A stretch of 52,155 nucleotides of DNA from an uncultured Methylobacter sp. Its GTDB lineage: Bacteria > Pseudomonadota > Gammaproteobacteria > Methylococcales > Methylomonadaceae. The notes under the pieces were generated by a model. The model had not been told where the DNA came from and made no database searches. It saw nothing but the letters and a program-made list of their open reading frames with translations. Of this stretch, positions 9,960-51,901 are shown piece after piece. The position numbers and the translations under genes were made by a program. The stretch lies in assembly GCA_903832775.1 (NCBI GenBank), contig CAILCX010000034.1, positions 1-52,155 of the forward strand, read 5' to 3'. The first letter of the stretch is position 1; each line of letters starts with the position of its first letter.

Positions 9960-11879
<1,920 letters not shown>

Positions 11880-14546: not shown

Positions 14547-15481
14547 AGTTAACAGAACGTTTTCGGCTCAGCCGGTTTGTTGCGGGTGAAAAAGCCATTG
14601 ATACGCCGGTCACCTTAAATCACCGGCGCATCTTTATCTTGCCTACCTTGCGGGGCTTGGGCTTTGTCTTGTTGATTGCGCTGTTGTTGCTGATTGCTTT
14701 TGTCTATAACAATAACTTAACCTACATGCTGGCTTTTTTACTCGCGAGTGTGTTTTTTGTCACCATCTTACATAGCTACAAAGCCTTAGCCGGTCTGGTG
14801 GTACAAAAGGGCCGGAGCAAAGCCGTGTTTGCAGGAGAGGCAGCTGGCTTCGACATCCATATCAACAACCCGACCGATTTGCAGCGCCAACAATTGCAGG
14901 TTACCCAGCAAGACAGTCAACGCTTGGTCATTCAAGCCCAAGGCGCTGCGCATATCACCCTGTATTCTATCACCCAAAAAAGAGGCTGGCACACAGCCGG
15001 AACGGTCACGCTATCCAGCACTTATCCGCTGGGCTTGTTTCGCGCCTGGTCTCCAATCCGTTTTGGCCTAAAGGCCCTGGTTTATCCAAAACCGGCGCTT
15101 ATCGAAATACCATTTCCTCAAATATCACTGGCAGGAGCGCAACAGGGATTTAACCAAAAGCGCGGCGACGATTTTCAAGGGTTGCAAGCATACCAATCCG
15201 GAGATTCGATCAAACACATACATTGGAAAGCCTTCGCCAAAGGCTTGGGCGTGTTCAGCAAACAATACGCCGGCGAACAGTCAATTGAGGAAATCCGCTT
15301 GGATTACGATCAAGCGCCAGGGCATAGCATCGAAGAGCGCTTAAGCCAGTTATGCCGCTGGGTAGTCGATGCGGAGCAAGCCGGAATCACTTATAGCTTT
15401 GCTTTGCCGGGATTAAAATTGCCGCCCGATAACGGCTTGGCGCATTATCAAAAATGCCTTGAAGCGCTGGCGCTATTTTGA
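14543..15481 (+). CDS. DUF58 membrane-associated protein, MoxR partner
   Basis: A 312-residue protein starting at a TTG that overlaps the moxR stop (TTGA). Two hydrophobic helices near 35-75 anchor it in the inner membrane. The DUF58 signature comes late: GDDFQGLQAYQSGDSIKHIH followed by WKAFAKG, about 211-238. DUF58 proteins nearly always accompany MoxR ATPases and have a von Willebrand-like fold related to metal-dependent assembly. The specific substrate is unknown. The downstream gene begins on the last base of its stop codon. Confidence 0.85.
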   Translation: MKLTERFRLSRFVAGEKAIDTPVTLNHRRIFILPTLRGLGFVLLIALLLLIAFVYNNNLTYMLAFLLASVFFVTILHSYKALAGLVVQKGRSKAVFAGEAAGFDIHINNPTDLQRQQLQVTQQDSQRLVIQAQGAAHITLYSITQKRGWHTAGTVTLSSTYPLGLFRAWSPIRFGLKALVYPKPALIEIPFPQISLAGAQQGFNQKRGDDFQGLQAYQSGDSIKHIHWKAFAKGLGVFSKQYAGEQSIEEIRLDYDQAPGHSIEERLSQLCRWVVDAEQAGITYSFALPGLKLPPDNGLAHYQKCLEALALF

Positions 15482-35667: not shown

Positions 35668-36567
35668 ATGAATATAAAGTTGATGCGGTTTTTTAATAAG
35701 TTGGTATTTACAGTATTGGCTATGACTTTGATATTCAAAGTTTGTGTTGTTAATGCTCAGTCACCTATAGCTATGGATGGGTCTACCGGTACCGGTAGTG
35801 GGACAAATCAAAACTTTAATGTTCCCGGCGCTCATCAAGTCATTACTATTAATGGCGACGGGCCAAATGCCAATGGCACGCAAGTAGGATCCAATCTGTT
35901 TTTTAGTTTCAGCCAGTTTGGTATAGCGGCTGGTGATACTGCGCTGTTTCAATGTCCCGGCGGGTGTGCGGGGGTTACTAATGTGATCAGTGGTGTTACG
36001 GGTGGAACTGGCTCTGTGCTTGATGGATCTCTAGTGTCTATAATTGGCAATGCAAATTTCTGGTTTTTCAATCCCGCTGGTGTCACTGTTAATGGGGCAA
36101 TTAATATTCCGTTGGGGGCAACTTATCATATCAGTAATGCTTTTGGTGTTGTTGATTCAAATGGGTTAAGTATTTTAAGTAACTCTTCAACCCAAGGATC
36201 AACGTTAACGGCTACCCCAGTTGGATTTAGTTTTTTTAGTGATACATTAAATCCTATTACCATTACTGGCACCAACATAAACCCCGAAAACACCATCAGC
36301 AACGTCGCAATAAAAACCGTTACAGAATCCGTCAAACCGGTTATTGATATTGCCCAGATGAATAGTAGCTCTTTGCTACCCTTACCAAAAAGTCCTTGCG
36401 ATAATCGCAGTCAAAGCTCCCTGATTTCCAAAGGCGTTGCCAATTATATCCCCGACTTAAGTTCCCAGGTGGCTACTTCAGTTTTGACGGCTAGAAGTTC
36501 CGGCGCTTCATCGTCGGTAGAGCAAGCACAGTCATTGAAGTTGGCTGAAGAGGAAGGTTGTCAATGA
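35668..36567 (+). CDS. Very short two-partner-secretion exoprotein (TpsA, filamentous-haemagglutinin N-terminal domain)
   Basis: 299 residues with a long signal peptide ending near VVNAQS (about 31). The TPS domain follows: INGDGPNANGTQVGSNLFFS, the NPAGVTVNG motif (135-143, the usual NPxGI element) and IPLGATYHISNAFG. After it there is only a tail of about 90 residues, whereas normal TpsA proteins run to thousands. Cysteines form two pairs, C96/C100 in the TPS domain and C244/C298 in the tail, the last next to the C-terminus. The stop overlaps the TpsB start (ATGA). No frameshift is visible, so the short form seems real. Confidence 0.85.
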   Translation: MNIKLMRFFNKLVFTVLAMTLIFKVCVVNAQSPIAMDGSTGTGSGTNQNFNVPGAHQVITINGDGPNANGTQVGSNLFFSFSQFGIAAGDTALFQCPGGCAGVTNVISGVTGGTGSVLDGSLVSIIGNANFWFFNPAGVTVNGAINIPLGATYHISNAFGVVDSNGLSILSNSSTQGSTLTATPVGFSFFSDTLNPITITGTNINPENTISNVAIKTVTESVKPVIDIAQMNSSSLLPLPKSPCDNRSQSSLISKGVANYIPDLSSQVATSVLTARSSGASSSVEQAQSLKLAEEEGCQ

Positions 36568-38348
36568 GCATTACAAACATGAAATTATCATTTAAAAGTT
36601 ATTCCCCTCAGCACTTTACTCCAGTTTATAAACGCCGACTAAGCGCGGCTTTACTTGGTTGCAGTCTTTCAGCACTGGCTTTTGGCGCACCGGTTACGTC
36701 TTTTGATACCAATAATATATCCAATGCAACCGGCGTTACTCCTAATCAAAAGCCTTTGCAATTACCTGAATTTCGGAAGCAGGATGATAAAGAGACTTTT
36801 GTTTTGCCTCCGGCTCCCAAATCATCGCCTTTGGCAGAACAGGAAAAAGTGCAGGTAAAACAGATAACGTTCACCGGCAATACCGTGATTAATAATGACG
36901 AGTTGCAGAAAATTGCTTTGTCTTTTTTAAATCGCCCTTTATCGGTTCGTGATCTTGAAGAGTTGCGCAGTAGGGTTACAGCAATCTATGTTGATGCCGG
37001 TTATATTAATTCTGGAGCAATGATCCCTCCACAATCCGTTGCCAATGGCGTTTTACAGATCAAGATTATCGAAGGCCAGTTAACTGACGTTAAATTGGAA
37101 GGAATGGGTCGACTTAGAGAAGCTTATGTGCGTGATCGTTTAATCATCGGAGCCGGTTCGCCGCTTAATTTTAAAAATTTGCAGGACAGATATCAGGTTA
37201 TGCTGGCTGATCCTTTAATTGATCGTTTAAACGGAAGTTTGCAGCCGGGAACACATCCGGGAGATGGCGTTTTGTCGGTAAAAGTCACCCGGGCGCGGCC
37301 TTATCAGCTTTATGCGGGGGCAGATGACTACACCACGCCGATAGTCGGCGGCTACACCGGGCGCCTTGGTGGTTGGGTAGATAATCTATCCGGTTTTGGT
37401 GAACGTATCGATGCCAATTTTATGGCGACAGGTGGTTCGCTAGGTGTTAATACCGGTATAGAAATTCCGCTGAACGCCTACGACACCCATGCTACTTTTC
37501 GTTACAGCAACAGCAGTTCTTCGCTGGTAGAAAAACCGATTAATCAGTTGGATATAAGAACTAACGTCATCGGTTATGAAGGCGGTTTAAGCCAACCTCT
37601 GTATCGGACGCCTGACTTGACTTTAAAAGCGGGTATTAATTTGTCCGTACGCGAAAGTCATTCCACTCTGCTCGGACAACCCTTTTCTTTTACCGAAGGT
37701 TTGCCCAGTAATCACGGAACAACGCAAGTCACCGTACTTCGTCTCTGGCAGCAATTTGTAAAACAGGGTGCTCGAGATGCTTTTGTCGCAAGGTCGACTT
37801 TTAATACTGGCATGAATTCGCTGGGTTCTACCATTCAAAACGATAGTTTATTGCCTAGCGGCGATTTTTTTAGTTGGCTAGGACAATCGCAGTACAGTCA
37901 TCGCGTTATGGATAACGGTGCGCAAATCGTTTGGAAAGGTGTTTTACAGCAGTCCGCTGATCCCTTGTTGCCTTTGGAGCGTTTTGCCCTGGGTGGTGTT
38001 TATAGCGTGCGGGGTTATCGTGAAAATTATTATGTCAGGGACAATGGTTTTAGTACCGGTCTGGAATTTCGTTATCCGATGTTTGGCGGTGAACCGGCGG
38101 CTAAACACAGTCTGTTTTTTATCCCGTTCATGGATTATGGCGGTGCCTGGAATAACTCGACACATGCCGATTTAAATCCTAAAAAAGATTATCTGCATTC
38201 AATAGGTATCGGCTTTGACTGGCACTACAAACAGATGAATACCGAGTTTTACTGGGCGCATAGCATTACCAATGTCAAGGCGATTTCTGGTGAACGAAAT
38301 ATTCAAGACGACGGCATACATTTTAAAGTTGGCTTCGTTGCATTTTAA
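36564..38348 (+). CDS. TpsB outer-membrane transporter (ShlB/FhaC/HecB family)
   Basis: The ATG at 36564 overlaps the tpsA stop and gives 594 residues; a further ATG at 36579 is possible. After a signal region (LSAALLGCSLSALAFGAP) and a proline-rich stretch comes the POTRA region from about 95 (VKQITFTGNTVINNDEL; then AIYVDAGYINSGAMIP). A C-terminal 16-strand barrel includes ALGGVYSVRGYRENYYVRD, the VRGY motif near residue 480 that sits in the pore loop, and the end ends in HFKVGFVAF with a terminal aromatic residue for outer-membrane assembly. It should secrete the adjacent TpsA. Confidence 0.92.
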   Translation: MSITNMKLSFKSYSPQHFTPVYKRRLSAALLGCSLSALAFGAPVTSFDTNNISNATGVTPNQKPLQLPEFRKQDDKETFVLPPAPKSSPLAEQEKVQVKQITFTGNTVINNDELQKIALSFLNRPLSVRDLEELRSRVTAIYVDAGYINSGAMIPPQSVANGVLQIKIIEGQLTDVKLEGMGRLREAYVRDRLIIGAGSPLNFKNLQDRYQVMLADPLIDRLNGSLQPGTHPGDGVLSVKVTRARPYQLYAGADDYTTPIVGGYTGRLGGWVDNLSGFGERIDANFMATGGSLGVNTGIEIPLNAYDTHATFRYSNSSSSLVEKPINQLDIRTNVIGYEGGLSQPLYRTPDLTLKAGINLSVRESHSTLLGQPFSFTEGLPSNHGTTQVTVLRLWQQFVKQGARDAFVARSTFNTGMNSLGSTIQNDSLLPSGDFFSWLGQSQYSHRVMDNGAQIVWKGVLQQSADPLLPLERFALGGVYSVRGYRENYYVRDNGFSTGLEFRYPMFGGEPAAKHSLFFIPFMDYGGAWNNSTHADLNPKKDYLHSIGIGFDWHYKQMNTEFYWAHSITNVKAISGERNIQDDGIHFKVGFVAF

Positions 38349-38364
38349 TTTAGGAGTCACACGC

Positions 38365-40683
38365 ATGGAAAAATTATTGCCTGTAGTCACGCTGGTTTTT
38401 TTAACGCTAAATACATCGTTAGCGTTAGCTTTACCTTCTGAGAGCACACCTCTTCTTGAATCCCAAGTAGCTACCGACCTGAATGCCAAACTGGCTTTAG
38501 GCGAAAATTATCGTAATAAAGGTAATTATGCCCTGGCCGCAACCGAGTTTCAGACAGTTCTGGGACTAGCCGAAAAGTCGGGTGATCAGCAAACCCAAGC
38601 AATGGCTTTGGCCGCTTTAGGTTATAACCATTATTTGGCCAGAGATAATACCAAGTCACAAGCATTGTTGGAGCGGGCCAGTGTGCTGGCTAAAGCACTT
38701 AAGTCTCCGGCACTCGAAGCACTTGTTGATGATTATTCAGGTTTGTTATATCGCAGTTTACAACATCCCGATAAAGCCGCAGCAAGTTTTGCATCAGCCT
38801 TAAAGAATGCCCAGTTAACTGCCAATAAATCCTTAATAATCGGTATTAAGCTTAATCAGGCCAGTTTGGAGACGATTGCAAGCGGCCATTTAGGTTTAGT
38901 CGAAAAGATAACGACTGAGGTATTAGCGCTTCCTGATGATGCTAACAAAATAAAGCATTTGCTGACTATCGGTGAACAACTGTTGGCAAATTCCACAACT
39001 GATCTCAAAGCTGAGCAACAACGTCAGTTAAAAGTAACTTATCAAGTGCTTAATAGCGCCTATCAATTGGCAGATAGCCAAAATAAAGTTCGCTTGCGGT
39101 CACAGGCAGAAGGTTATTTGGGACGTTTGTATGCTGCACAAAAACGTAATCAGGACGCTTTATTATGGCTGGATAAGGCGATATTTGATGCCCAGCAAGT
39201 GAATGCCAGCGATTTATTATTGCAATGGGAATTGCAAAGCGGGCAGTTGTTTCATGCTAATGGTAGCAACAATGCCGCATTGGAAGCCTATCAACATGCC
39301 GCCAAACATCTGACTGACATTCGTTATGGAATGCCTGTTACTTTACATAATGGTCAATCATCTATCAAACAGGTTATTGATCCAGTTTATCGTGGCCTGG
39401 CGGATATGTTGTTATTACAGGCTAGCCAGACTTCATCTAACGAAACAAAACAAAACTTGATAAAACAAGCCATTGACGCAATGGAAATCATTAAAAAAAC
39501 TGAACTTGAAGATTTTTTTAATGATCGTTGTTTAGTTAACGATGATTCGACGATTAATTTAAGAGTTGCGCAACTGCCGGGAACCGGTGTTCTTTATCCG
39601 GTCATCTTACCTGATCGTGTAGAGTTGTTATTTCGAGCGGGAGATAGTATGCAATTTGAGCAACAATCAGTGCCTGTTCCATCGGCTGAGGTTGTGGAAA
39701 CTGCCCTGCAAATGACGCAATATTTACGCGAGGGTGAGGGCAATTACCGCCCTGCGTCGCGTAAACTTTATGGCTGGTTGCTTAAAGCTTACGACGACAA
39801 GTTAAAAAGCAAAGGCTTGACTACCGTTCTTTATGTGCCCGATGGCCCGTTGCGTCAGGTGCCTTTTTCGGCGTTGCTTAATGGCAAAAAATTTGCCGTT
39901 GAAGATTATACCGTTGTAACCCTGCCAGGCTTGATTCTGAAGAAAAAGGGACAAGAGAACATTAAAAATTCTCGTGTATTAATCGCCGCATTGAGCAAAC
40001 CTGATGGCGCTTCAATTGATGAGTTAATGCAAAGTCCCGTCGAAGGCGTATTGGGAGAGCGCGGTATCGTTGAGATGCCCGAGACGACTGTAGCTGAGAG
40101 CCAACCCCCCAAATTGACACGCGCTCTTTTGGTTGAAAGACTGAGTCTCCCAAGTATTAATGAAGAAGTATCGCAGTTACAGAGCAATCGCCTTAATACG
40201 ACTTTGCTTAATCAGGCATTTACATACGATGGCATTAAACAATCCTTTGGTTCAGGCGATTATTCAATTGTTCATATCGCGTCCCATGGCTATTTTGGCA
40301 AGAATGCCGCAGACAGTTTTGTGATGACTTATGATCGTAATCTCAAGCTGGGGGATTTCCAGTCAATGCTGAGTAATGACAAGATTAAAAAATCGCCCAT
40401 TGATTTATTAACATTAAGTGCCTGTCAAACGGCTGCCGGAGATGATCGTGCCCTGTTGGGTTTCAGTGGTATGGCTATTAAAACCAACGCGCTTAGCGCC
40501 ATTGGTTCTTTGTGGTCAGTGAATGATGAGGCTACCGCCAGCTTGATGAAAGCCTTTTATGCCGATTTATCGACGCATCCCAAAGCACAGGCTTTACGAC
40601 AGGCACAATTGACTTTATTGGCCGATAAAGAATTAAAACATCCCCATTATTGGTCGCCGTTTATTTTGGTGGGTCAATGGTAA
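38365..40683 (+). CDS. Secreted TPR-CHAT protease
   Basis: The ATG at 38365 has a good ribosome-binding site (TAGGAG) and opens a signal peptide (LLPVVTLVFLTLNTSLALA); the frame upstream overlaps tpsB and is not needed. 772 residues: TPR-like helical repeats from about 35 to 380 (NYALAATEFQTVLGLAEKSG; ALLWLDKAIFDAQ), then a caspase-like CHAT domain from about 480. Catalytic His641 (HIASHGYFG) and Cys687 (LSACQTAAGD) are both present, so an active cysteine protease is expected. It lies 16 bp after tpsB and 32 bp before tagH. CHAT proteins beside TPS pairs are known from genome surveys, but their substrate is unclear; the exoprotein itself is the obvious candidate. Confidence 0.9.
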   Translation: MEKLLPVVTLVFLTLNTSLALALPSESTPLLESQVATDLNAKLALGENYRNKGNYALAATEFQTVLGLAEKSGDQQTQAMALAALGYNHYLARDNTKSQALLERASVLAKALKSPALEALVDDYSGLLYRSLQHPDKAAASFASALKNAQLTANKSLIIGIKLNQASLETIASGHLGLVEKITTEVLALPDDANKIKHLLTIGEQLLANSTTDLKAEQQRQLKVTYQVLNSAYQLADSQNKVRLRSQAEGYLGRLYAAQKRNQDALLWLDKAIFDAQQVNASDLLLQWELQSGQLFHANGSNNAALEAYQHAAKHLTDIRYGMPVTLHNGQSSIKQVIDPVYRGLADMLLLQASQTSSNETKQNLIKQAIDAMEIIKKTELEDFFNDRCLVNDDSTINLRVAQLPGTGVLYPVILPDRVELLFRAGDSMQFEQQSVPVPSAEVVETALQMTQYLREGEGNYRPASRKLYGWLLKAYDDKLKSKGLTTVLYVPDGPLRQVPFSALLNGKKFAVEDYTVVTLPGLILKKKGQENIKNSRVLIAALSKPDGASIDELMQSPVEGVLGERGIVEMPETTVAESQPPKLTRALLVERLSLPSINEEVSQLQSNRLNTTLLNQAFTYDGIKQSFGSGDYSIVHIASHGYFGKNAADSFVMTYDRNLKLGDFQSMLSNDKIKKSPIDLLTLSACQTAAGDDRALLGFSGMAIKTNALSAIGSLWSVNDEATASLMKAFYADLSTHPKAQALRQAQLTLLADKELKHPHYWSPFILVGQW

Positions 40684-40715
40684 CCCGTTATTTTCTATAC
40701 GCAGTGTAATCGATT

Positions 40716-42467
40716 ATGAGTGTAACCTTAAGTGTATTATCATTTAAAAATCAGCCTATTACTGAAATAAATTCAGTTTCCATTGGTATTAATGGTGGCG
40801 GCATTGGTCGCTCTGATGATAATGCACTGGTACTTCCCGATACTGAAAAATTTGTCTCAAGACATCATGCTTCCATCAGCTATGAAAATGGCGCTTATTT
40901 TTTGTCGGATTCCAGTTTGGGAGGCGTATTCATTAATAATCGGGAATCTCCGTTACATAATGCGACAGAACGTCTTGCAAACGGAATGACTATAAAGGTT
41001 GGTGAATACGAAATTGCCGTCTCTGTGGTTGAAGAGCAGGTCACCGACGACTTTCTGTTTGTACCTGAACCTGAAATCAACTCTTTTCTTCAGGTTGATG
41101 AGCCTTGGATAGTGGCGGAAGATGTCAGTTTAAACAGTTTGATGAACGACAACTTTCCCAGTCATGATGAACTGGTTCAAAGCAGATCAGACGCAAGTCC
41201 CACTGGATTTGAAAGTGCTTTACCAGTCAATCAGTCACCACTTTTTGATAGCTATATTGCTCCAAATATTACTACATCATCTTCATCAGCCCATGAAGAA
41301 ATCCCGGATAACTTTAGTTTTGATGATTTTTTTTCAGACAGTATTTCAGGTATTTCAGAGACACAATCTACCTCAGTCGTGCTGACGAAAGCCACTGTAG
41401 ATAACGAGTTTGAAGATTTCTTTGGTGCTGCTCTCGGCGATATGGCTGGTGAACTTGAGCAACCTTCACTATCTTTAAGTGAAGAGTTTCCGGTAGTTCT
41501 TATCCCTGAACTGGAAAACGCTAAAGAAGAGAAGTTAACTGTCGAGCCCTTTGGTGACTTGACAGGTAAGGAACAGATTAATGAAAATTCCGAGATTTTT
41601 TCTTTCGATGATGAACTAAACCAACATGAATCTGACTCGGAATCAGTCAATTCATTATTTGAAAGTGAGCCCTCTTTATTTTCAAGTGTGGAGCAACCTG
41701 CTAGTTCAATCCCGGAAACAGAAACAAATATGAGTTCTGTTGTAAATGACTCAGTAGTTAGCTCCCCAGATACGAACCAAGACTTTGAGATTTTAGTTCC
41801 TGACAGACAATTTCCACATACGCCTTTTCACAGTGAAGAAATAGCCACAAAGAAACCCATTGAGACCATTAATACCAAGCAGGCTGTCATTGCTGATACC
41901 AGATTATTTAATGCTTTTTTGCAAGGTGCTGCGGTAGAATGCAACGAAATTGGTCCCGAGCAACAAACAGAAACCCTGCATAGAATTGGGCTGATGTTTA
42001 GAAAACTGATTGACGGTACGGTTGCTGTCTTAAGGAGTCGGGCAGAATTTAAAAGTTTATGTCGCGTCAATATGACAGTTATCAGATCAGCCAACAATAA
42101 TCCTCTTAAATTTACCGTATCGACGGATGATGTATTAAGGCAGTTAATCGAAAATAAAACCGATGGTTTTTTGGCTTCGACGACTGCTATTGAAGAGTCT
42201 TTTAACGATATTATGAATCACCAATTAGCCATGCAAGCTGGTATTCAGGCTTCTTTAACCGATTTATTAAAGACTTTCGATCCCAAAATTATTGAAAAGC
42301 AGTTTGAACAGGGACTTGTCCTGCAAAAAAAATCTAAATGTTGGGATAAGTACGAAGAAACCTATCGAAATACGGTTGATGAGGCCGTTGAAAATTTCTT
42401 CGGTGAAGAGTTCGTCAAAGCTTATGAAAAACAAATGAGTCAGCTTACGAATGCACGGCGAAACTAA
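40716..42467 (+). CDS. tagH: T6SS-associated FHA-domain protein TagH
   Basis: 583 residues. An N-terminal FHA domain (about 5-105) has GRSDDN at 31-36, SRHH at 48-51 and the NN pair at 74-75, the residues that read phospho-threonine. A long acidic, Ser/Thr-rich, disordered middle (about 110-385) follows. The C-terminal domain (about 390-583) has LFNAFLQGAAVECNEIGPEQ and ends in EEFVKAYEKQM, typical of T6SS FHA proteins. It recruits phosphorylated T6SS components (TssL in Agrobacterium) to trigger assembly. First gene of the visible T6SS set. Confidence 0.88.
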   Translation: MSVTLSVLSFKNQPITEINSVSIGINGGGIGRSDDNALVLPDTEKFVSRHHASISYENGAYFLSDSSLGGVFINNRESPLHNATERLANGMTIKVGEYEIAVSVVEEQVTDDFLFVPEPEINSFLQVDEPWIVAEDVSLNSLMNDNFPSHDELVQSRSDASPTGFESALPVNQSPLFDSYIAPNITTSSSSAHEEIPDNFSFDDFFSDSISGISETQSTSVVLTKATVDNEFEDFFGAALGDMAGELEQPSLSLSEEFPVVLIPELENAKEEKLTVEPFGDLTGKEQINENSEIFSFDDELNQHESDSESVNSLFESEPSLFSSVEQPASSIPETETNMSSVVNDSVVSSPDTNQDFEILVPDRQFPHTPFHSEEIATKKPIETINTKQAVIADTRLFNAFLQGAAVECNEIGPEQQTETLHRIGLMFRKLIDGTVAVLRSRAEFKSLCRVNMTVIRSANNNPLKFTVSTDDVLRQLIENKTDGFLASTTAIEESFNDIMNHQLAMQAGIQASLTDLLKTFDPKIIEKQFEQGLVLQKKSKCWDKYEETYRNTVDEAVENFFGEEFVKAYEKQMSQLTNARRN

Positions 42468-42506: not shown

Positions 42507-43844
42507 ATGTCAGAAAATAATAAGACAGTATGGTCGGAAGGCATGTTTCTCAGGCCGCAACACTTTCAGCAACATGATCGTTACATAGAAAATTTATTGC
42601 GCGAACGTTGTGGCGGGTTGCAACCTTACGATTGGGGGATTAAAACGCTCAAAATTGATGTCAAACATTTAACAATGGGCAAGTTTTCATTGGCAGAATG
42701 CAGTGGCATCTTTCCTGACGGCACACCTTTTAATCTGCCTGTAGATGATGCTTTGCCGCTGCCTATCGATATTCCAATCGATGTGCAAAACAACATTATC
42801 TATCTATCTCTACCTTTGCAACAACCCGGTGGCGTTGAAGTTGATACCGATGAAAACCCTAATAATCTGGCTAGATACCATGCTGCAGAACTTGAAGTCA
42901 GGGATGCGAACGTAGCAACCAATGCCACGTCTCCGGTCATGATTGCCAGGCTGCACACCACTTTAATGCTGGAAAGACAGGAGCGGGCAGGGCATGTGTG
43001 TATTGGAATCGCACGGGTGATTGAATCGCGTATTGATAAAAATATTATTCTCGATGAGTACTATATTCCGCCGAATTTGGATTGTAATGCAATATCCCAT
43101 ACCAGAGGTTATATCAAAGAGTTGTATGGCTTGTTGCATACAAGGGGTGTAGCCTTAGGCGGACGTGCTTCTGAAGCGGGGAGAGGCGGCGTTGCAGAAA
43201 TATCCGATTATCTGTTATTGCAATTGGTTAATCGTGTAGAACCCTTATTTGAACATCTACAAAATATACCTGCATTACATCCTGAAAGCTTTTATCGAAC
43301 TGCAATTCAACTTGCCGGTGAGTTATCAACTTTTTGCAAAGCCAATAAAAGACCCATCAGTTTTTTGCCCTATGTTCATGATGATTTGCAAAAAACCTTT
43401 AAGCAGGTTATGGACGAACTGCGAGATTTGCTCAGTTCGGTTCTGGAACAAAACGCTATATTCATTCCCCTGACCGCTGCAAAATTTGGCATTCGCGGTG
43501 CCAAAGTGCCTGATCCCAATCTGCTAAAAGATGCTGTATTTGTCTTGGCGGTCAGCGCGCAAGTCTCGATTGAGCAATTGCGTAGCGGTTTTCCTACCCA
43601 GGTTAAAATCGGGCCTGTTGAACAAATAAATCTTTTAATTCGCAACGCTTTGCCGGGTATTACTATTCAAGCCTTACCCGTTGCGCCACGGCAAATTCCC
43701 TATCATGCGGGCTTTGCTTATTTTGAATTGAATAAACAAAGTGAGTTGTGGAAACAAATGCTGCAATCGGGTGGTTTTGCCATTCACATTGCCGGCGAGT
43801 TTCCGGGGCTTGAATTAGAATTCTGGGCAATCAAAAACGGATAA
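42507..43844 (+). CDS. tssK: T6SS baseplate subunit TssK
   Basis: 445 residues. The N-terminus VWSEGMFLRPQHFQQHDRY is the family signature and the length is standard. TssK links the TssEFG baseplate wedge to the TssJLM membrane complex. LRSGFPTQVKIGPVEQINLL and GLELEFWAIKNG near the C-terminus belong to the domain that binds the TssL/TssM cytosolic parts. It follows tagH by 39 bp and precedes tssL by 4 bp. Confidence 0.95.
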   Translation: MSENNKTVWSEGMFLRPQHFQQHDRYIENLLRERCGGLQPYDWGIKTLKIDVKHLTMGKFSLAECSGIFPDGTPFNLPVDDALPLPIDIPIDVQNNIIYLSLPLQQPGGVEVDTDENPNNLARYHAAELEVRDANVATNATSPVMIARLHTTLMLERQERAGHVCIGIARVIESRIDKNIILDEYYIPPNLDCNAISHTRGYIKELYGLLHTRGVALGGRASEAGRGGVAEISDYLLLQLVNRVEPLFEHLQNIPALHPESFYRTAIQLAGELSTFCKANKRPISFLPYVHDDLQKTFKQVMDELRDLLSSVLEQNAIFIPLTAAKFGIRGAKVPDPNLLKDAVFVLAVSAQVSIEQLRSGFPTQVKIGPVEQINLLIRNALPGITIQALPVAPRQIPYHAGFAYFELNKQSELWKQMLQSGGFAIHIAGEFPGLELEFWAIKNG

Positions 43845-43848
43845 CACC

Positions 43849-45213
43849 ATGAGCAAAGACGATCCTTTTGGCAATAACTATATTGATGATGATAAAACCA
43901 TTCTCAGACCAATGCCGGGAGGACGAAAGCCTCAAGCGCAAGTATCTACATCTCAAATACCGCCAAGTAGCAATCACGCGGACACCGTTGCGGGTATCTC
44001 AGAAAATCTGCGACTTGCATGCGCACAGGGTAAACGTAATCCTATAACGGGAGCTGCGATTTCTTTGTTGTCGATTGTTGCGCAATTACGTAATACCTCG
44101 TCACATCCTGATGTACCTGGCCTTAGAGTCAGTATTATTGAAGAAATAAAACAATTCGAACTTAAGATTAAAAATCAGGGTGTATCGGGTGAACAGGTGC
44201 AAGCGGCACGCTATGCTTTATGTACTTTGCTGGATGAAACAGTGCTTAACACGCCGTGGGGTTGCAATAGTATCTGGAGCACACAAAGTTTGCTCATCTT
44301 CTTTCATAAAGAAGCCTGGGGTGGCGAGAAGTTTTTTCTTATTTTAAAGAACTGCATGCAGCAACCGGGCACGCATCTGGATTTGCTGGAATTGCTGTAT
44401 TTTTGTTTGTGTCTGGGCTTTGAAGGTAGATATCGCGTTGAAGACCATGGTTTAAGTAAACTTGAGGAAATCCGGGAAAACGCTTATCAAATTATTCAGA
44501 GACAGCATGGCGATGTTGAAAGAACTTTGTCGCTACATTGGCAGGGCATTAAAGACAAACGCAATGTGCTTGCCAAATTTGTTCCTTTATGGGTGATTGG
44601 TTCGGTTGCCGCTTTGCTGTTAATGTTCAGTTTTTTAGGCTTTTTGTATTTTATCAACTCTGCGTCCAATCCGCTTTTGTCCAGATTGTATGTACTGAAA
44701 GATAGTTTTGATGTGCAACCTGTCGTTGCCGCCGAAATTATTCCCTCAATCGAAACACCTCCTGTTGCTCCGACTCCTGCTCAACCTGCATTACTTGATG
44801 ACTTAAACGCCTTTCTTGAACCTGAAGTTCGTAGTGGCGAAGTCATGCTGCTTAAAATAAATGGTAAAACAGTTATTCGTATTATGAGTAAAGGATTTTT
44901 TGCTTCGGGCAGCGATAAAATCATGACCCAATATTATCCCTTGCTCGATAAAATTGGCCAGGCTCTCGCAAAAGTTTCGGAACGAATCATGATTGTTGGA
45001 CACACTGATAGTTCGCCGATTTTCTCGGCAAAATTTCCGTCCAATTGGGATTTGTCCAAAGCTCGCGCTTTATCAGTTGCCGAGCTGTTAACGGGCAACA
45101 AAAAAATCAGTGCCACAATTGTTTCTGAAGGTCGGGCCGATACGCAGCCGATGGTGGCTAACGATAGCCCGGAGCATAAAGCAATGAATCGCCGCGTAGA
45201 AATAATTATATAG
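43849..45213 (+). CDS. tssL: T6SS membrane subunit TssL (DotU/IcmH) with C-terminal OmpA-like domain
   Basis: 454 residues. A disordered N-tail with DDDKTILRPMPGGR places Thr17 in the context seen for the phosphorylated Thr of Agrobacterium TssL. The DotU domain (about 55-235) contains ARYALCTLLDETVLNTPWG. One helix (about 247-270) crosses the inner membrane. A periplasmic linker and a peptidoglycan-binding OmpA-like domain (about 340-454) with GHTDSS and NWDLSKARALSV finish it, so this is an extended TssL of the TagL-fused type. Confidence 0.95.
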   Translation: MSKDDPFGNNYIDDDKTILRPMPGGRKPQAQVSTSQIPPSSNHADTVAGISENLRLACAQGKRNPITGAAISLLSIVAQLRNTSSHPDVPGLRVSIIEEIKQFELKIKNQGVSGEQVQAARYALCTLLDETVLNTPWGCNSIWSTQSLLIFFHKEAWGGEKFFLILKNCMQQPGTHLDLLELLYFCLCLGFEGRYRVEDHGLSKLEEIRENAYQIIQRQHGDVERTLSLHWQGIKDKRNVLAKFVPLWVIGSVAALLLMFSFLGFLYFINSASNPLLSRLYVLKDSFDVQPVVAAEIIPSIETPPVAPTPAQPALLDDLNAFLEPEVRSGEVMLLKINGKTVIRIMSKGFFASGSDKIMTQYYPLLDKIGQALAKVSERIMIVGHTDSSPIFSAKFPSNWDLSKARALSVAELLTGNKKISATIVSEGRADTQPMVANDSPEHKAMNRRVEIII

Positions 45214-45229
45214 CCGCAAAGGAATAGCC

Positions 45230-48200
45230 ATGAACAGTGTGATCGAGTTTTTCAAAAAGAAATGGGTTATTCAGCTGCTGGGGATTATTGCCGTAAGTTT
45301 ATTGATTTGGTTTTTCGGGCCGCTGATTGCTATTGCAGGACATGTGCCGCTGGAATCCGATATGGTCAGATTATTAGTGATCATGTTACTGGTGGTGTTA
45401 TGGGGACTGAATAATCTTCGGATTCAACTCAGTGCAAATCGTGCGAACGCCCAAATGGCCAGTGATTTAGTTGCACCTGGAAGTGATGATAATTCTCAGC
45501 TTGCCCAACAAGCCGATGCTGAAATCGGAACTATCGCCAATAATTTTGATGAGGCACTGCAAACCCTTAAAAAAGGTGCAAAAAACGCCCAAGGCAAAAA
45601 CTATCTTTACGATTTGCCCTGGTACATCATCATCGGTCCTCCAGGTTCGGGCAAAACCACCGCTTTGATTAATTCCGGTCTGGAATTTCCCTTGGCAGAC
45701 AAGTTTGGGAAGGGTGCTGTGCGTGGCGTTGGCGGCACGCGTAATTGTGATTGGTGGTTTACTGATCAAGCGGTATTACTCGATACGGCAGGACGCTATG
45801 TTACGCAGGACAGTCATGAAGCCGTTGATAAAGCCGCCTGGCTGGGTTTTTTGGAGTTGCTTAAAAAACATCGACCAAGAAGGCCGGTTAATGGTGTGAT
45901 TATCACCATGAGTTTGTCAGATCTACTTAAGCAAACAGAAGAAGAGCGAAGTTTGCATGCCCAATCAATTCGTCAGCGTATTGAAGAATTACACAGCCAG
46001 TTTGGGATTCGTTTTCCTATTTACATGTTGTTTACCAAAGCGGACTTAATTGCCGGTTTTAATGATTTCTTTGCTAATTTAAGCAAAGAAGAAAGAGCAC
46101 AGGTTTGGGGGGTTACTTTCCCGGAAGAAGATTCTGAAAATCCTGTGGATGTAATAACCCGCGTTGGCAAAGATTTTGATGATTTATTGACGCGGTTAAA
46201 TGAGCATCTGCCAAGACGTCTGCAAGAAGAACGGGATTTGCAACGCCGCAATCTGATTTTTGGTTTTCCACAACGTATGGCGTTGCTTAGAGAAGGTTTG
46301 CTGGGTTTTTTACAGGAATGTTACGGGACCAATCGTTTTCAAAAAGCACCCTGTTTGCGTGGTGTCTATTTGACCAGCGGAACGCAGGAAGGCACGCCTA
46401 TTGACCGTTTAATGGGTATGCTCGCCAATACTTTTAAACTGGATAGGGTTTCCGCACCGTTATTTAGCGGCAAAGGCAAAAGCTTTTTTTTAACGCGTCT
46501 GTTGAAGGAAGTGATTTTTGAAGAAGCGTTGATCGTCGGGGTTAATCCGCGTCTTGAACGAGTCCAGACTTTATTGCGCAACGGTGTTTATGCGGGCGCA
46601 GTTGCCATCCTTGTGTTACTGTCGGTGTTATGGTTGACCAGTTATAATAAAAATCAAACAGCGATTGCTGAAACTTTGAGCAAAATTGAACAATACGACA
46701 AAGTAGTTGCAGCAACACCTACTTGGCAAAATGATTTTGCGGCTTTGTTAAAGCGTATGAATGCCATGCAGGCCATTACCCAAGTTTATGTTGAAGACGT
46801 GCCAAGCTTAATGACTTTTGGGCTTTATCAAGGCGATAAACTACAACCTGTTATCAAAGAAACTTATAACGAACTTTTACAAAAACAATTCTTGCCGTTG
46901 ATCAAAACACGTTTGGAACAACGTATTAAAGACAAGACCGATAATCCGGATATTTTATATTCCTTGCTGGAAGTCTATTTGATGTTGGGCGACAGCAAGC
47001 GATTCAATCCGGAATTGTTGAAACCCTGGATTGCCGTTGACTGGGAAAATACCTATTCGACTGATACCGAAACCCAGGCGCAATTACTTGCACATTTAGA
47101 TAATCTACTTAAACTGCCGCCAGAAATACAAACGCTTAATCAACGATTAATATCTGCCGCACGGCAAATCCTTAATCGTATTCCTGTGGCGCAACAAATT
47201 TATATGCGCATTAAGAATGATTCTTTGCAAAGCAAAACGCAAGATTTCAAATTACTCGATGCGCTGGGTATTAATGCTGAGCGGGTTTTTGCGACTAAAA
47301 GCGGTACTCTAGCGCAACAAAGCATTCCTTATCTTTATACCTATGATGGATTTTATTCAGTATTTTTAAAGCAAAGCAACGAACAGGTAGCCGAGTCGGT
47401 AACTGGAAGTTGGGTGCTTGGTGATGCCGCCAAGACTGAGACGGTTGATAGCGATAAACTGGAAGAGGCAATTCGGAACTACTACTATCAGGATTACATA
47501 AAATACTGGGATGCCCTGCTAGATAACGTAAAAATCAAAGCAACTGGTAATGCCGCCCAGGCCACTGAAGTCCTTGAGTTTGCTTCCAGTCCGGATTCGC
47601 CGCTGCGTAAATTACTCGAAGCCTTAAACAGGGAAACTTCGCTGACCAACAAACCGCCCAGTCCGGAAGATGCCGCAAACAAGCTGCAACAAGCCGGTGC
47701 AGTAAAACCGGCTGATAGTCGTCTGACCAAGCTTTTAGATGCTGCCAAATCGGCAGGACTGACTGGACAACCAGCCAAACCTTTGGGCAGCGATGTCGAA
47801 GAGCATTTCAAGAGTTTAACGTCCTTGGTAAGAGGTTCAGGCGGCCCTGTTCCGCTAGATCGTACCATAGAAGTTTTGGGGCAACTTTATGGTTATATGA
47901 TAGACCTGAGCGGAACTTCGAATGTGGGCGGTGTGGCCATTGAAAAAGCTAAACAAAGTGGTGGCGGTGATGCGGTCGCGAAAATGAAAATGGAAGCGGC
48001 TCATTTGCCGGAACCACTGAAAAGTATGACGCAGGTTTTGGCCGCCGGTAATCAGGATCTTATTTTGGATAGTAGTAAATCCCAGTTGAACCGGCTTTGG
48101 CAAAGCGAGGTTATGCCGCTGTATCAATCCGCAATTCAGGGGCGTTATCCTTTTTCCAGAGCCAGTAGCAAAGATATTACTCTGGAAGATTTTAGCCGGT

Positions 48201-48781
48201 TTTTTGCCCAGGGCGGCACTCTGGATCAATTTTTTAATAACAATCTGAAAGCGTTTGTCGATACCAGTGGAAAAAATTGGCGCATGATTAGCCAGGATAA
48301 TCAGGCTATCAGTGTTTCCGCCGCTACGTTGACCCAGCTTCAGGCGGCCGCCAAGATTCGTCAGATATTTTTTGCTGGCGGTGGCAGTTTACCATTAGTG
48401 AAATTTACGCTTAAGCCTTTATCACTAGGAACTAATGCCACTTCGTTTTGGTTGAATATTGAAGGTCAGCAAACTGCTTACAATCAAACTGACACAGGCA
48501 AAAACGCTGCGTTTCAATGGCCGGGAACCGATGGCAGTCGCTTGGTGAGTTTCGGTTTTGAAACCAAAGACGGAAAAAAACTGCATAAAGACACCGAAGG
48601 GCAATGGGCCTGGTTCAGGGTTTTGGAGTTGGCGCAGATACAAAGAACTGACCAGGATAAATACCTACTTACCTTCGATATTGATGGAGTTCAAGCGCGT
48701 TATGAACTCAGCGCAAGTAGTGTGGATAATCCTTTCTCGCTGAAAGAGTTTGATAATATTCGCTTTGCGGGAAGTCTGTAA
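45230..48781 (+). CDS. tssM: T6SS membrane subunit TssM (IcmF family)
   Basis: 1183 residues. Helices lie at about 12-37 and 45-63, followed by a cytosolic NTPase-like domain with intact Walker A GPPGSGKT (136-143) and VLLDTAGRYVTQD as the second motif. A third helix lies near 450-470. A large periplasmic region with ImcF-related and C-terminal TssM domains follows (PFSRASSKDITLEDFSRFF near 970). It forms the trans-envelope channel with TssL and TssJ; no tssJ gene is visible in the window. AAGGAA serves as ribosome-binding site. Confidence 0.95.
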   Translation: MNSVIEFFKKKWVIQLLGIIAVSLLIWFFGPLIAIAGHVPLESDMVRLLVIMLLVVLWGLNNLRIQLSANRANAQMASDLVAPGSDDNSQLAQQADAEIGTIANNFDEALQTLKKGAKNAQGKNYLYDLPWYIIIGPPGSGKTTALINSGLEFPLADKFGKGAVRGVGGTRNCDWWFTDQAVLLDTAGRYVTQDSHEAVDKAAWLGFLELLKKHRPRRPVNGVIITMSLSDLLKQTEEERSLHAQSIRQRIEELHSQFGIRFPIYMLFTKADLIAGFNDFFANLSKEERAQVWGVTFPEEDSENPVDVITRVGKDFDDLLTRLNEHLPRRLQEERDLQRRNLIFGFPQRMALLREGLLGFLQECYGTNRFQKAPCLRGVYLTSGTQEGTPIDRLMGMLANTFKLDRVSAPLFSGKGKSFFLTRLLKEVIFEEALIVGVNPRLERVQTLLRNGVYAGAVAILVLLSVLWLTSYNKNQTAIAETLSKIEQYDKVVAATPTWQNDFAALLKRMNAMQAITQVYVEDVPSLMTFGLYQGDKLQPVIKETYNELLQKQFLPLIKTRLEQRIKDKTDNPDILYSLLEVYLMLGDSKRFNPELLKPWIAVDWENTYSTDTETQAQLLAHLDNLLKLPPEIQTLNQRLISAARQILNRIPVAQQIYMRIKNDSLQSKTQDFKLLDALGINAERVFATKSGTLAQQSIPYLYTYDGFYSVFLKQSNEQVAESVTGSWVLGDAAKTETVDSDKLEEAIRNYYYQDYIKYWDALLDNVKIKATGNAAQATEVLEFASSPDSPLRKLLEALNRETSLTNKPPSPEDAANKLQQAGAVKPADSRLTKLLDAAKSAGLTGQPAKPLGSDVEEHFKSLTSLVRGSGGPVPLDRTIEVLGQLYGYMIDLSGTSNVGGVAIEKAKQSGGGDAVAKMKMEAAHLPEPLKSMTQVLAAGNQDLILDSSKSQLNRLWQSEVMPLYQSAIQGRYPFSRASSKDITLEDFSRFFAQGGTLDQFFNNNLKAFVDTSGKNWRMISQDNQAISVSAATLTQLQAAAKIRQIFFAGGGSLPLVKFTLKPLSLGTNATSFWLNIEGQQTAYNQTDTGKNAAFQWPGTDGSRLVSFGFETKDGKKLHKDTEGQWAWFRVLELAQIQRTDQDKYLLTFDIDGVQARYELSASSVDNPFSLKEFDNIRFAGSL

Positions 48782-48783
48782 CT

Positions 48784-50283
48784 GTGGATTCAATAACAAG
48801 TGTCGGTTTTTACGGTAAGTTACCCATGGTTGGGGATTTTGTGTCCAGGCGTTTACCGAATGACTTTATCAGTTCCTGGGATAGCTGGCTGCAAAGCGCT
48901 ATCGCCGCCAGCCGGGAAGAATTGGGTGATGACTGGTTGAAAAATTATCTGACCAGTCCGATTTGGCGTTTTTTGCTAAGCCCCGGCCTTTGTGGCAATC
49001 AGGCAGTAGCCGGTATTATGATGCCTAGTGTTGACAGGGTAGGGCGTTACTATCCATTGACTGTAGCGGTGCAAATTAATCAATCGTCTCAGCTTCCCTT
49101 CTTGTTTACCTCAGGAAATGCCTGGTTTGAACAGTTGGAGGATGCGGCTTTTATGGCTCTGGAAGGTAATCTTGATATTAATGCCTTTGATGAGCTTATT
49201 CAAACTATTCCTCCATTTTCTTTACCTGCCAGTGCATCCTTAGGTCAACAGCCATTGGAGGATAAAAAGTCCTTTCATATAACCCTGAGTGATTCCCAGC
49301 AAGTTGGCGATGCTTTTATAGAGCTAAACGCGAACTTATTGGCTAGCTTTATGCCAGGTTTTAGTTTGTGGAACAGCACAGGGTCAGAAAATGTCAGGTC
49401 TGAGTTGATTGCCTGTCAAGGATTACCCCCTATAGCTAGTTTTTCCGGATTTTTAAAGACTAAAGATTGGCCTATGCATTTTGCGGAGACGTCTAATAGC
49501 AGTGATATAACTCTTCAAGTTCCAGAGCCGGAACATGCAAGTTTAAGTAGCATACTGGGCGGTAACAATTCTTCTGAAGCTAAGCTGGGTTGGCGTTCCT
49601 GGGCAGTTACTGATACCGGCAAGAAACGTAAGCACAATGAAGACTCTTTTCTAGACAGACCAGAAGCCGGTTTATGGGTAGTTGCTGACGGTATGGGGGG
49701 GCACAAAGCTGGCGATGTTGCGAGTCAGATGATTGTTAATACACTTAAAGAATTAGTGCCTATCAATCCACTAGAAAATTTAATTAAAGAGGTGGTTAAT
49801 TGCTTACAAAGTGTTAATATCCGGCTACGCCAGTTGGCAGCTAAAGAATATGGCAATCATCTGGTTGGTAGCACCGTAGTCGGCTTGGTTTGTGACCCAG
49901 AACGTTGCGGATTTTTATGGGCTGGTGACAGCCGTTTATATCGATTTAGACATAATCGACTAGAGCAACTTACTAAAGACCATTGTGCTGATGAAGACGC
50001 CTCTTCCGATTGGTCAGTTAAAAGTTCGAATATTATTACCCGAGCGGTTGGTGCCTACGATGATTTGGAGTTAGAAATACAGATTACTGATATTTTTGAG
50101 GGAGATCTGTTTTTATTAAGCAGCGATGGCTTGGATAAAGAAATAAGTATTAGGGAAATTGAGGCAATGATTCAAAAAACTCAACCACACGAACTTGCCA
50201 ATGCTTTAATCAATGAGACCTTGTCCCGCGGTGCCAGAGATAATGTCACCGTTGTTGTGGTAAGCATAGAAACCATTTTGTAA
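48784..50283 (+). CDS. TagF-PP2C fusion: T6SS repressor domain joined to a Ser/Thr phosphatase (PppA-like)
   Basis: 499 residues from a GTG start 2 bp after tssM. Residues 1 to about 240 are TagF (VGFYGKLPMVGDFVSRRLP; IMMPSVDRVGRYYPLTVA). Residues about 270-499 are a PP2C phosphatase with NED (285-287), DGMGGHKAGD (302-311), GDSRLYRF and RGARDNVTVV, so the metal-binding aspartates are present. TagF represses T6SS assembly and PppA removes the phosphate that activates it; a fused form is known from Agrobacterium. The matching kinase PpkA is not in this window. Confidence 0.92.
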   Translation: MDSITSVGFYGKLPMVGDFVSRRLPNDFISSWDSWLQSAIAASREELGDDWLKNYLTSPIWRFLLSPGLCGNQAVAGIMMPSVDRVGRYYPLTVAVQINQSSQLPFLFTSGNAWFEQLEDAAFMALEGNLDINAFDELIQTIPPFSLPASASLGQQPLEDKKSFHITLSDSQQVGDAFIELNANLLASFMPGFSLWNSTGSENVRSELIACQGLPPIASFSGFLKTKDWPMHFAETSNSSDITLQVPEPEHASLSSILGGNNSSEAKLGWRSWAVTDTGKKRKHNEDSFLDRPEAGLWVVADGMGGHKAGDVASQMIVNTLKELVPINPLENLIKEVVNCLQSVNIRLRQLAAKEYGNHLVGSTVVGLVCDPERCGFLWAGDSRLYRFRHNRLEQLTKDHCADEDASSDWSVKSSNIITRAVGAYDDLELEIQITDIFEGDLFLLSSDGLDKEISIREIEAMIQKTQPHELANALINETLSRGARDNVTVVVVSIETIL

Positions 50284-50298
50284 CGAAAGGAAAGACCC

Positions 50299-51342
50299 TT
50301 GGCTATCGATATTGAAGAATTTTTAAAAGACATCGTCCCCGATAATGTATGTGGCGATGATTTGCAATATGACCCCGCTTTTATTGAGCTTGAACAAGCA
50401 ATTAAAGGTAAGCCCGAACAGCAAATGGGCGATACCGTCGTCGAAGCCGAGCCGCCCAACTGGCGTGAGATTAAAAAAACCTCCGAAGCGTTATTGGCAA
50501 GAACCACTGATTTACGTGTATTGATGTGTTATTTACGCGCTCTGATAGCTCAAGAGGGGTTTTCAGGGTTACAAGATGGTTTAGCGCTACTTAAAGTCGC
50601 AGTAGAAAACCGTTGGGATAACCTGCATCCCCAGCTTGATCCCGATGATGACAACGACCCTACTGAAAGAATTAATGTGTTATTGTCGTTATGTGATCAG
50701 GATACTATTCTCAAGTCATTAGTTAAAACCCCTCTTGTTGAATCCAAGTTGCTGGGTCGTTTTAATTTTAGGGACATCACTATTGCGTCTGGAAAATCCA
50801 CAGCAACCAGCAATGAAACAGAGGTTAGCCAGAGTACCATAGATGGAGCGATTCAGGATGTTGATTTAGAGCAATTACAACAAACCTTTCTGGCAATTAA
50901 TACAAGTCTTGACGACCTAAATCAATTAGAAGCATTGGTAACCGATTATGTTGGTGTTAGCGATGCACCCAGCTTTGCTGATTTACGTGTTTTTCTAAAG
51001 GAGAGTAAAAGCTTTTTATCAGCAGCGTTGGAGAAGCGAGGTGTCGGTGATGAAGTAATTGAAGAAGAAGATGTTATTGAAGGCGCTTCTGGAGAAACTT
51101 CGGTAGCAGCACAAAAATCAATTTCAGGTGCTATTAATAACAATCAGGATGTCACCAAGACCTTGAATCTGGTTTGCGAATATTATCGTAAAAATGAACC
51201 CTCAAGTCCCGTTCCTATGTTGATTGAGCGAGCAATACGACTGGTTGGAAAAAGCTTCATGGATGCACTTAAGGATATTGCACCGGGGGGTATTGATGAG
51301 GCGAAAATAATTTCAGGTCATCAAAATGATGAATATGAATAA
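50299..51342 (+). CDS. tssA: T6SS cap/baseplate-associated protein TssA (ImpA N-terminal family)
   Basis: 347 residues from a TTG start with ribosome-binding sequence AAGGAAAG. The ImpA-N domain (about 10-130) shows CGDDLQYDPAFIELEQAIKG and PPNWREIKK, and ENRWDNLHPQLDPDDDNDPT is the other conserved element. The C-terminal part (about 270-347), with LVCEYYRKNEPSSPVPMLIE, is the short-type ending. TssA primes sheath and tube assembly at the baseplate and can follow the distal end. It follows tagF-PP2C by 15 bp. Confidence 0.93.
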   Translation: MAIDIEEFLKDIVPDNVCGDDLQYDPAFIELEQAIKGKPEQQMGDTVVEAEPPNWREIKKTSEALLARTTDLRVLMCYLRALIAQEGFSGLQDGLALLKVAVENRWDNLHPQLDPDDDNDPTERINVLLSLCDQDTILKSLVKTPLVESKLLGRFNFRDITIASGKSTATSNETEVSQSTIDGAIQDVDLEQLQQTFLAINTSLDDLNQLEALVTDYVGVSDAPSFADLRVFLKESKSFLSAALEKRGVGDEVIEEEDVIEGASGETSVAAQKSISGAINNNQDVTKTLNLVCEYYRKNEPSSPVPMLIERAIRLVGKSFMDALKDIAPGGIDEAKIISGHQNDEYE

Positions 51343-51376
51343 ATCAATTTTAACAACAACAATGAAGAGGTGTTAA

Positions 51377-51901
51377 ATGGCACAAAGTAGTCAAAAATTT
51401 ATTGCACGTAATCGTGCTCCCCGGGTTCAAATTGAATATGACGTTGAATTATATGGAGCGCAAAAGAAAGTACAACTTCCTTTTGTAATGGGCGTTTTAG
51501 CCGATTTATCGGGTAATCCAACCGATCCTCTTGCGCCGGTCGGTGAACGTAAGTTGTTGGAAATTGATGTAGACAATTTTGATGACCGTTTGAAAGCCAT
51601 GAAACCTCGCGTTGCGTTTAATGTGCCTAATGCACTGACCGGAGAAGGTAATCTGAATGTTGATATTACTTTTCAAAGTATGGATGACTTTTCCCCTGCC
51701 GCCATAGCAAAAAAAGTCGCCGGTTTGGATAAATTAATGGAAGCAAGAACGCAACTATCTAACTTATTGACCTATATGGATGGTAAAGAGGGTGCGGAAG
51801 ATTTGATTGCCAATGTACTTAAAGATCCTGCTTTGTTGCAATCTTTGGTAGCGGCTCCCAAACCTGCCGATGCAACCGAAACTAAAGAGGGAGGAGAGTA
51901 A
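51377..51901 (+). CDS. tssB: T6SS contractile sheath small subunit TssB (VipA)
   Basis: 174 residues, standard length. The N-terminus RNRAPRVQIEYDVELYGAQK and LPFVMGVLADLSG are the family signature; NVDITFQSMDDFSPAAIAKK matches the second conserved region. It builds the contractile sheath with TssC, whose gene begins 3 bp after the TssB stop. The ATG has AGAGG upstream. Confidence 0.97.
   Translation: MAQSSQKFIARNRAPRVQIEYDVELYGAQKKVQLPFVMGVLADLSGNPTDPLAPVGERKLLEIDVDNFDDRLKAMKPRVAFNVPNALTGEGNLNVDITFQSMDDFSPAAIAKKVAGLDKLMEARTQLSNLLTYMDGKEGAEDLIANVLKDPALLQSLVAAPKPADATETKEGGE

Follow-up and report, generated by a model that had tools for sequence, protein, structure and literature searches.

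The 52,155-nucleotide stretch analysed here, called the window throughout, comes from an uncultured Methylobacter sp. (GenBank assembly GCA_903832775.1, contig CAILCX010000034.1; order Methylococcales) and harbors a compact cassette in which the genes of a two-partner secretion (TPS) pair, namely the exoprotein TpsA and its transporter TpsB, are followed by a gene for a protein combining tetratricopeptide repeats (TPRs) with a CHAT domain. Towards its C-terminus TpsA bears an element, referred to here as the tag, that recurs in the exoproteins of related loci. The cassette comprises the following features (aa, amino acids).

35668..36567, + strand: TpsA, a small TPS exoprotein of 299 aa, with a TPS domain match at residues 66-212 and a short tail
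36394..36453, + strand: core of the variant C-terminal tag of TpsA, PCDNRSQSSLISKGVANYIP, residues 243-262, located by profile comparison
36564..38348, + strand: TpsB, an ShlB/FhaC-type outer-membrane transporter with POTRA_2 (Pfam)
38365..40683, + strand: export-type TPR-CHAT protein of 772 aa (CHAT PF12770; His641, Cys687; Csx29/separase-like predicted fold)
40667..40690, + strand: weak terminator-like stem of 8 pairs, 3 of them G-C, at the end of the CHAT gene

Window TpsA matches the Pfam TPS family PF05860 (E 2.6e-11, 44.3 bits against a cut-off of 33.5) and the NCBIfam model adhes_NPXG (E 1.5e-9), and its start resembles a signal peptide as judged by eye. The TpsB frame is open from a TTG at 36558, the likely start being the ATG at 36564, which gives a 4-base overlap with the TpsA stop; the protein matches POTRA_2 (PF08479, E 3.9e-21) and ShlB (PF03865, E 7.9e-22). 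By TPS domain and POTRA transporter the two are a TPS pair, secretion itself being predicted. The CHAT gene starts with the ATG at 38365, 16 base pairs (bp) past the TpsB stop and preceded by AGGAG. An earlier note on this DNA had described the 299-residue TpsA, the start/stop overlap and the 16-bp gap, and coordinates and Pfam domains confirm this layout. The genome to which the window belongs (G000; 3.86 Mb, 215 contigs) contains one further CHAT-family match, on contig C85, likewise directly behind a TpsB; since the arrangement also recurs elsewhere, the TpsA-TpsB-CHAT row is more than chance. This second TpsB-CHAT lies at the end of C85, and a tagged TpsA-like frame reaches back to the start of contig C124; both may belong to one split cassette, the join being a guess.

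Regarding the third protein, the CHAT match (PF12770) covers residues 463-771 with an E-value of 2.5e-48 and 165 bits against a cut-off of 24. His641 and Cys687, which the earlier note had placed in an exported type of TPR-CHAT protein, are found at exactly these residue numbers, and the N-terminus resembles a signal peptide, again by eye. Among the unfused full-length CHAT open reading frames (ORFs) of the loci described below, the N-terminus is hydrophobic in 101 of 109, and homologues lacking the His or the Cys were looked for without any being found, the dyad being kept in 109/109. By domain, dyad and predicted fold, which is Csx29/separase-like, the window protein is a CHAT member of clan CD with predicted proteolytic activity and a probable location in the periplasm; its relation to Csx29 and separase is one of modelled fold. 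No NCBIfam model matches it at E 0.001. Compared by sequence with solved structures, the CHAT part returned nothing meaningful (12 matches, best E 0.8), and the whole profile returned TPR, other helical-repeat or designed proteins (60 of 88 matches listed). Assignment to a defence system was rejected, PADLOC yielding only a weak TPR match for the protein (E 4e-4). Behind the CHAT gene of three loci (L061 at 9103-10239, L063, L064) comes a further lipoprotein-like protein that is shorter (378-396 aa) and matches the iterated CHAT profile with the dyad missing. At 1-603 of L044, a TpsB start lies in frame with the last part of a CHAT at the contig start, which is either a deletion remnant or an assembly error.

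The cassette was followed in other genomes by searching 201 genomes of the order with the window CHAT protein (E up to 1e-10), which gave matches in 46. From the upper part of this match list 40 places were retrieved, making 42 order loci with the window and the second locus of its own genome; 80 further loci are the best 80 of 555 from a GTDB scan, and at least four contigs are apparently present in both sets. Among the GTDB matches listed, the nearest named relatives belong to Methylococcaceae, Methylobacter included. CHAT relatives beside TpsB and/or TpsA can be found in Methylococcales, Betaproteobacteria, Desulfobacterota, Nitrospirota, Verrucomicrobia, SAR324 and Cyanobacteria, the last mostly with TpsA only. 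TpsB is adjacent to CHAT in 30 of the 42 order loci and within the stretch in 34; at the GTDB loci, which hold 81 CHAT ORFs, TpsA or a tag ORF is adjacent to 33 (fusions counted as adjacent) and present for 54, and TpsB is present for 33. Neither partner was found in the stretch for 6/42 order loci, 2 of them near a contig end, and 20/81 GTDB CHAT ORFs, 13 of them near one. The order is TpsA-TpsB-CHAT in the window and in Nitrospira, TpsB-CHAT-TpsA in many Methylococcales, and TpsA-CHAT, mostly with no TpsB nearby, in Cyanobacteria. Recurrence of the trio in other genomes had been set beforehand as a test by the earlier note, and the TpsA/TpsB-CHAT neighbourhood does recur across phyla; the TpsA-TpsB-CHAT unit is old.

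The partners are also found joined. Four frames run from a TPS domain through a long body and the tag to TPRs and CHAT (L104, 2,090 aa; L119, 2,664 aa; L134, 1,924 aa; L138, 1,793 aa), Pfam confirming TPS and CHAT in L138 and L119, and in L088 and L139 tag, TPR and CHAT share one frame with no TPS domain detected. The complete genome of Desulfonema magnum is the source of L119 and L088. In L123, TpsB is joined to TPR-CHAT in a single frame of 1,366 aa; since an Omp85-type barrel has its two ends on the periplasmic side, this fusion would put the protease there.

The TpsA proteins of CHAT loci are diverse in length and sequence and share the C-terminal tag, in which the last helix rungs come ahead of the Cys and which stays while the exoprotein ranges from 299 to more than 2,000 aa. 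The small exoprotein of the earlier note thus holds for the window, where TpsA has little beyond the secretion domain and a variant tag, and not for most other loci, where 800-2,000 aa is usual. Three profiles were used, A1 and A4 for the general tag and A5 for the variant, A1 (with rows from 15 genomes) and A5 being built from CHAT loci. The general pattern is roughly C-x(3-10)-S-[ST]-[LF]-x(3)-G-[KR]-[GD]-G, with variants, and the invariant columns of A4 are two Gly, Cys and Gly. Among the TpsA ORFs, 67 have a complete end; a profile that was iterated on this same set matches 60 of them, 5 fit a loose pattern only and 2 fit neither, one of these being apparently frameshifted and the other truncated. 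In the lineage of the window and a sister lineage the variant reads P-C ... S-[ST]-L, and another Cys follows close to the C-terminus (11/11 rows), at residue 298 in the window TpsA; A5, of which the window itself is one row, matches 36367-36564 with an E-value of 2.5e-21. In L035 (11868-17299, - strand) a single TpsB-CHAT is preceded by two tandem TpsA genes (1,452 and 334 aa) that share the variant tag. The tag is covered by no Pfam model in two fusions, two TpsA, four ORFs upstream of TpsB and window TpsA, and by no NCBIfam model in window TpsA, three further TpsA and one ORF upstream of TpsB. HMW1 is held by a C-terminal two-Cys loop; such a loop suits the variant tags but not the many general tags with a single Cys, and the idea was dropped. 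A cut site at an invariant Arg after Gly was expected, but several tags are without Arg, and none is proposed. A C-terminal tag that is short and conserved and has a cysteine enzyme alongside, together with the ability of clan CD enzymes to ligate, would also fit a transpeptidase that, in the manner of PorU or sortases, attaches the cut C-terminus to an acceptor on the surface; the distance of the tag from the protein end is not fixed, however, and no acceptor or ligation signature was seen, no search having been aimed at one. This sorting role is considered very unlikely.

While the TPS domain alone is far commoner (121/201 order genomes, 141 of the 398 genomes of a phylum sample), tag and protease occur almost together. 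The A1 tag is found in 30 of the 201 order genomes, 28 of which are among the 46 with CHAT (Fisher 7e-20, this and the following values assuming independent genomes, which these are not); within the 121 TPS genomes, 27 of 29 A1-tag genomes have CHAT (1e-13), as do 13 of the 15 A1-tag genomes that gave no A1 rows (5e-10). The variant tag is found in 16 of 200 order genomes, 15 of them with CHAT, weak matches being G074 (E 0.005, internal stop, CHAT present) and G133 (E 0.0017, no CHAT). Five A5 genomes with CHAT have no row of their own (G090, G052, G093, G099, G103), of which the first three are near copies of rows, and G099 and G103 are fair independent tests. With A1 and A5 combined, the protease is present in 37 of 40 tag genomes of the order, and the tag in 37 of 38 order genomes whose CHAT exceeds 130 bits; eight genomes with a weak CHAT match below 100 bits (G024, G060, G063, G102, G104, G107, G113, G195), none with the tag, are counted as other or broken CHAT types. 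In the phylum sample, whose genomes may partly overlap the sources of A4, 10 genomes have the tag, 10 a full-length CHAT and 9 both, or 8 excluding the genome of the window (6e-15). In the genus of the window, 5 of 11 genomes have tag and CHAT and 6 have neither, 3 of these 6 having a TPS domain.

Four genomes count as having the tag and no protease, namely G077, G085 and G133 in the order samples and G357 in the phylum sample. In G077 and on one of two G085 contigs the frame with the tag reaches the contig end; from the short frame on the other (L164) no tag was recovered by local profile. The G133 match lies in a frame of 50 aa, near which no partner gene was found, and in G357 the CHAT end is cut by the contig edge. 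The protease occurs without tag in G010, where CHAT is at a contig end, and in G389, which is 57% complete, with CHAT close to a contig end. None of these is a clean counterexample and none is excluded as one.

These observations are probably, by a modest degree, to be read as a TPS system with its own C-terminal processing protease, in which an exported Csx29/separase-like peptidase would read the TpsA tag in the periplasm and cut there. TPS exoproteins are exported N-terminus first. TpsB would thus export TpsA through the outer membrane in this direction, and the tag, arriving last, would remain longest in the periplasm, where the TPR-CHAT protein could recognise it through its TPR groove and the CHAT domain cut in or next to it, freeing the exoprotein from the transporter or maturing its end. 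In the fusions, exoprotein and protease stand on either side of the tag, so that a cut would part the two. Tag recognition and cleavage would be the simplest account because an active-looking protease of exported type, a C-terminal tag, a near one-to-one co-occurrence and fusions with the tag in between are found together. The window would be a minimal version, with secretion domain, variant tag and almost no body; it may be, as a speculation, that in this lineage the event itself matters and not a long adhesin.

Several points weigh against cleavage at the tag, in which cut and interaction are both predictions. In the structure model the tag is not found in the active site, and it has no invariant residue to mark a cut site, GYGA, GQGA and GHGG lacking Arg or Lys. 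Variant and general tag are in register though weakly similar (hhalign probability 31, P 5e-4). The sensitivity of A1 and A5 in CHAT loci is partly by construction, and the genomes are not independent. Cyanobacterial loci seldom have TpsB near (1/16 CHAT ORFs). Lastly, for 26 of 123 CHAT ORFs both partners are missing from the stretch, 15 of these ORFs being near a contig end; L062, partnerless and away from contig ends, carries a weak variant tag. These partnerless ORFs, and contig fragments that limit some counts, could suggest mere neighbours with no functional link, but this is scarcely credible given the recurrent order across phyla, the fusions and the co-occurrence, on which a chance neighbourhood was rejected; the single functional unit put forward in the earlier note finds support in the same three lines.

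It can also be asked whether the TPR-CHAT protein holds rather than cuts, binding the tag and tethering the exoprotein at, or plugged in, TpsB, with the dyad serving another use or a rare release. A TPR array is a peptide-binding fold, the tag has an invariant Cys, one Methylococcales CHAT clade (L061-L064) has a lipoprotein-like N-terminus, and TpsB can be fused to CHAT, all of which would suit a tether. Against it stands the retention of both His and Cys in every unfused full-length ORF, for which we know of no demand other than catalysis, and a holder is considered unlikely. Tag-directed processing remains the preferred reading for what follows.

Upstream of window TpsA lie a DUF2231 gene and a PilZ gene. 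Downstream of CHAT, genes of a type VI secretion system (T6SS) adjoin the cassette, a feature that, like the tag, goes beyond the earlier note.

40716..42467, + strand: TagH, an FHA protein of the T6SS and its first gene here, 32 bp past CHAT
42507..51901, + strand: T6SS genes in the same direction (TssK from 42507, TssL from 43849, TssM from 45230, TagF-PP2C from 48784, TssA from 50299, TssB at 51377-51901)

Terminator-like stems in the region number 8 against 5.3 expected, and the stem at 40667-40690 may restrict read-through into the T6SS genes or be chance. Because this stem is weak and promoter-like sites show no excess (13 found, 12.8 expected), co-transcription of CHAT and TagH across the 32-bp gap is predicted as likely.

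To our knowledge, TPS-CHAT genes are part of no T6SS. T6SS genes directly follow CHAT in 9 of the 122 loci searched with T6SS queries, namely TagH in five (the window, L034, L035, L036, L074) and TssA-TssB-TssC in four (L037-L040, L038 and L039 being near copies). The nine CHATs fall within one clade of 11 rows (Shimodaira-Hasegawa-like approximate likelihood-ratio test 99), the other two, L041 and L076, not being T6SS-linked; a lone T6SS-query match in L068 (TssL-like) and in L103 is of doubtful meaning. Three genomes of the TssA-TssB-TssC type (G040, G066, G153) have TagH-TssK-TssL-TssM-TagF/PP2C-OmpA-kinase-exoprotein upstream, and T6SS genes therefore flank the cassette on both sides; in G124, OmpA and kinase also precede TpsA. 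The kinase combines Pkinase, one likely membrane helix, PKD and DUF4384 (Pfam on G066 and G153) and is PpkA-like by this layout, a name given in this analysis. An OmpA gene and a PpkA-like PKD-DUF4384 kinase gene adjoin the exoprotein gene in the T6SS clusters of L155-L158 (e.g., L156 at 9101-11727), three of these kinases having an N-terminal D[DE]DKT motif that resembles one in TssL. In G130, a 1,042-aa WD40-caspase protein (Peptidase_C14, EACC1 type; L034 at 13785-16913, - strand) lies upstream of the T6SS-linked cassette, as does a TagQ-like lipoprotein.

The exoprotein could also be a surface antenna whose state activates CHAT to cut another protein, which in the lineage of the window might belong to the T6SS phosphorylation pathway. 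RNA-activated Craspase cuts a separate regulator (PMC10028731). Adjoining OmpA and PpkA-like kinase genes would likewise suit a sensor, but 33/42 order loci have no T6SS-query match in the stretch, L068 has the lone TssL-like one, and no common third gene was noticed near the cassettes, where no systematic search was made; a sensor protease is accordingly thought improbable. Tag-directed processing can be extended to a wider picture, put forward tentatively and as rather doubtful, in which an exported TPR-CHAT tag/protease system finishes TPS exoproteins across phyla and, in one methanotroph lineage, is wired into a T6SS cluster (OmpA, PpkA-like kinase, TagH), so that surface-protein release would join the envelope sensing that sets off the T6SS.

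Among known systems, type Vb pairs such as FhaB/FhaC and HMW1A/HMW1B resemble the window in TPS domain, ShlB/FhaC-type POTRA_2 transporter and TpsA-TpsB pairing. Unlike them, the cassette adds an export-type TPR-CHAT peptidase and a C-terminal tag to match it; in the case of FhaB, trimming is the work of general periplasmic proteases. Csx29, the TPR-CHAT of type III-E CRISPR (Craspase), has 12% sequence identity to the window protein in a structural alignment and lies with Cas7-11/gRAMP in a CRISPR locus, whereas the window CHAT has an export-type N-terminus and PilZ, DUF2231, TpsA, TpsB and T6SS genes as neighbours; no Cas7-11 is among its annotated window neighbours, the rest of the genome not having been searched for it. 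Separase differs in that the cassette CHAT is bacterial, of exported type and predicted to have another substrate. PorU with the type IX C-terminal domain, sortase and PEP-CTERM systems rely on C-terminal tags of secreted proteins, and they resemble the cassette in the logic of many secreted proteins, one tag and one dedicated enzyme, by analogy only. TagQRST/PpkA/PppA is the threonine phosphorylation pathway of the T6SS; TagH and TagF-PP2C are found near T6SS-linked cassettes, the PpkA-like kinase in four genomes and the TagQ-like lipoprotein in one.

In annotations of Cyanobacteria, CHAT genes are often seen close to filamentous-haemagglutinin-like genes. No literature combining the CHAT domain with two-partner secretion, TpsA/TpsB, hemagglutinin or adhesin, or with the tag string GRGGLPP, was found within a coverage that lacks most subscription journals. 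Recognition by way of a C-terminal part has a precedent in Csx29 (PMC10028731), TPR-CHAT genes are mentioned in Maribeggiatoa with hemagglutin/haemagglutin wording absent (PMC5108060), a TPS pair is described in Methylococcus capsulatus with no mention of a CHAT protein found (PMC4257694), and the HetF layout is given (PMC8406250).

Taken together, the evidence points to a mode of surface-protein finishing that is widespread and apparently undescribed. In Gram-negative bacteria, TPS exoproteins rank with the most common large surface proteins, and release of their last part is understood for few models only. A tag that can be read from sequence and appears matched to one protease makes exoprotein release directly testable in non-pathogens, and would serve as a mark for classifying unannotated exoproteins. 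The CHAT/separase family would be extended beyond the cytoplasm, and a T6SS link that proved functional would be the first known tie between the TPS and T6SS secretion routes.
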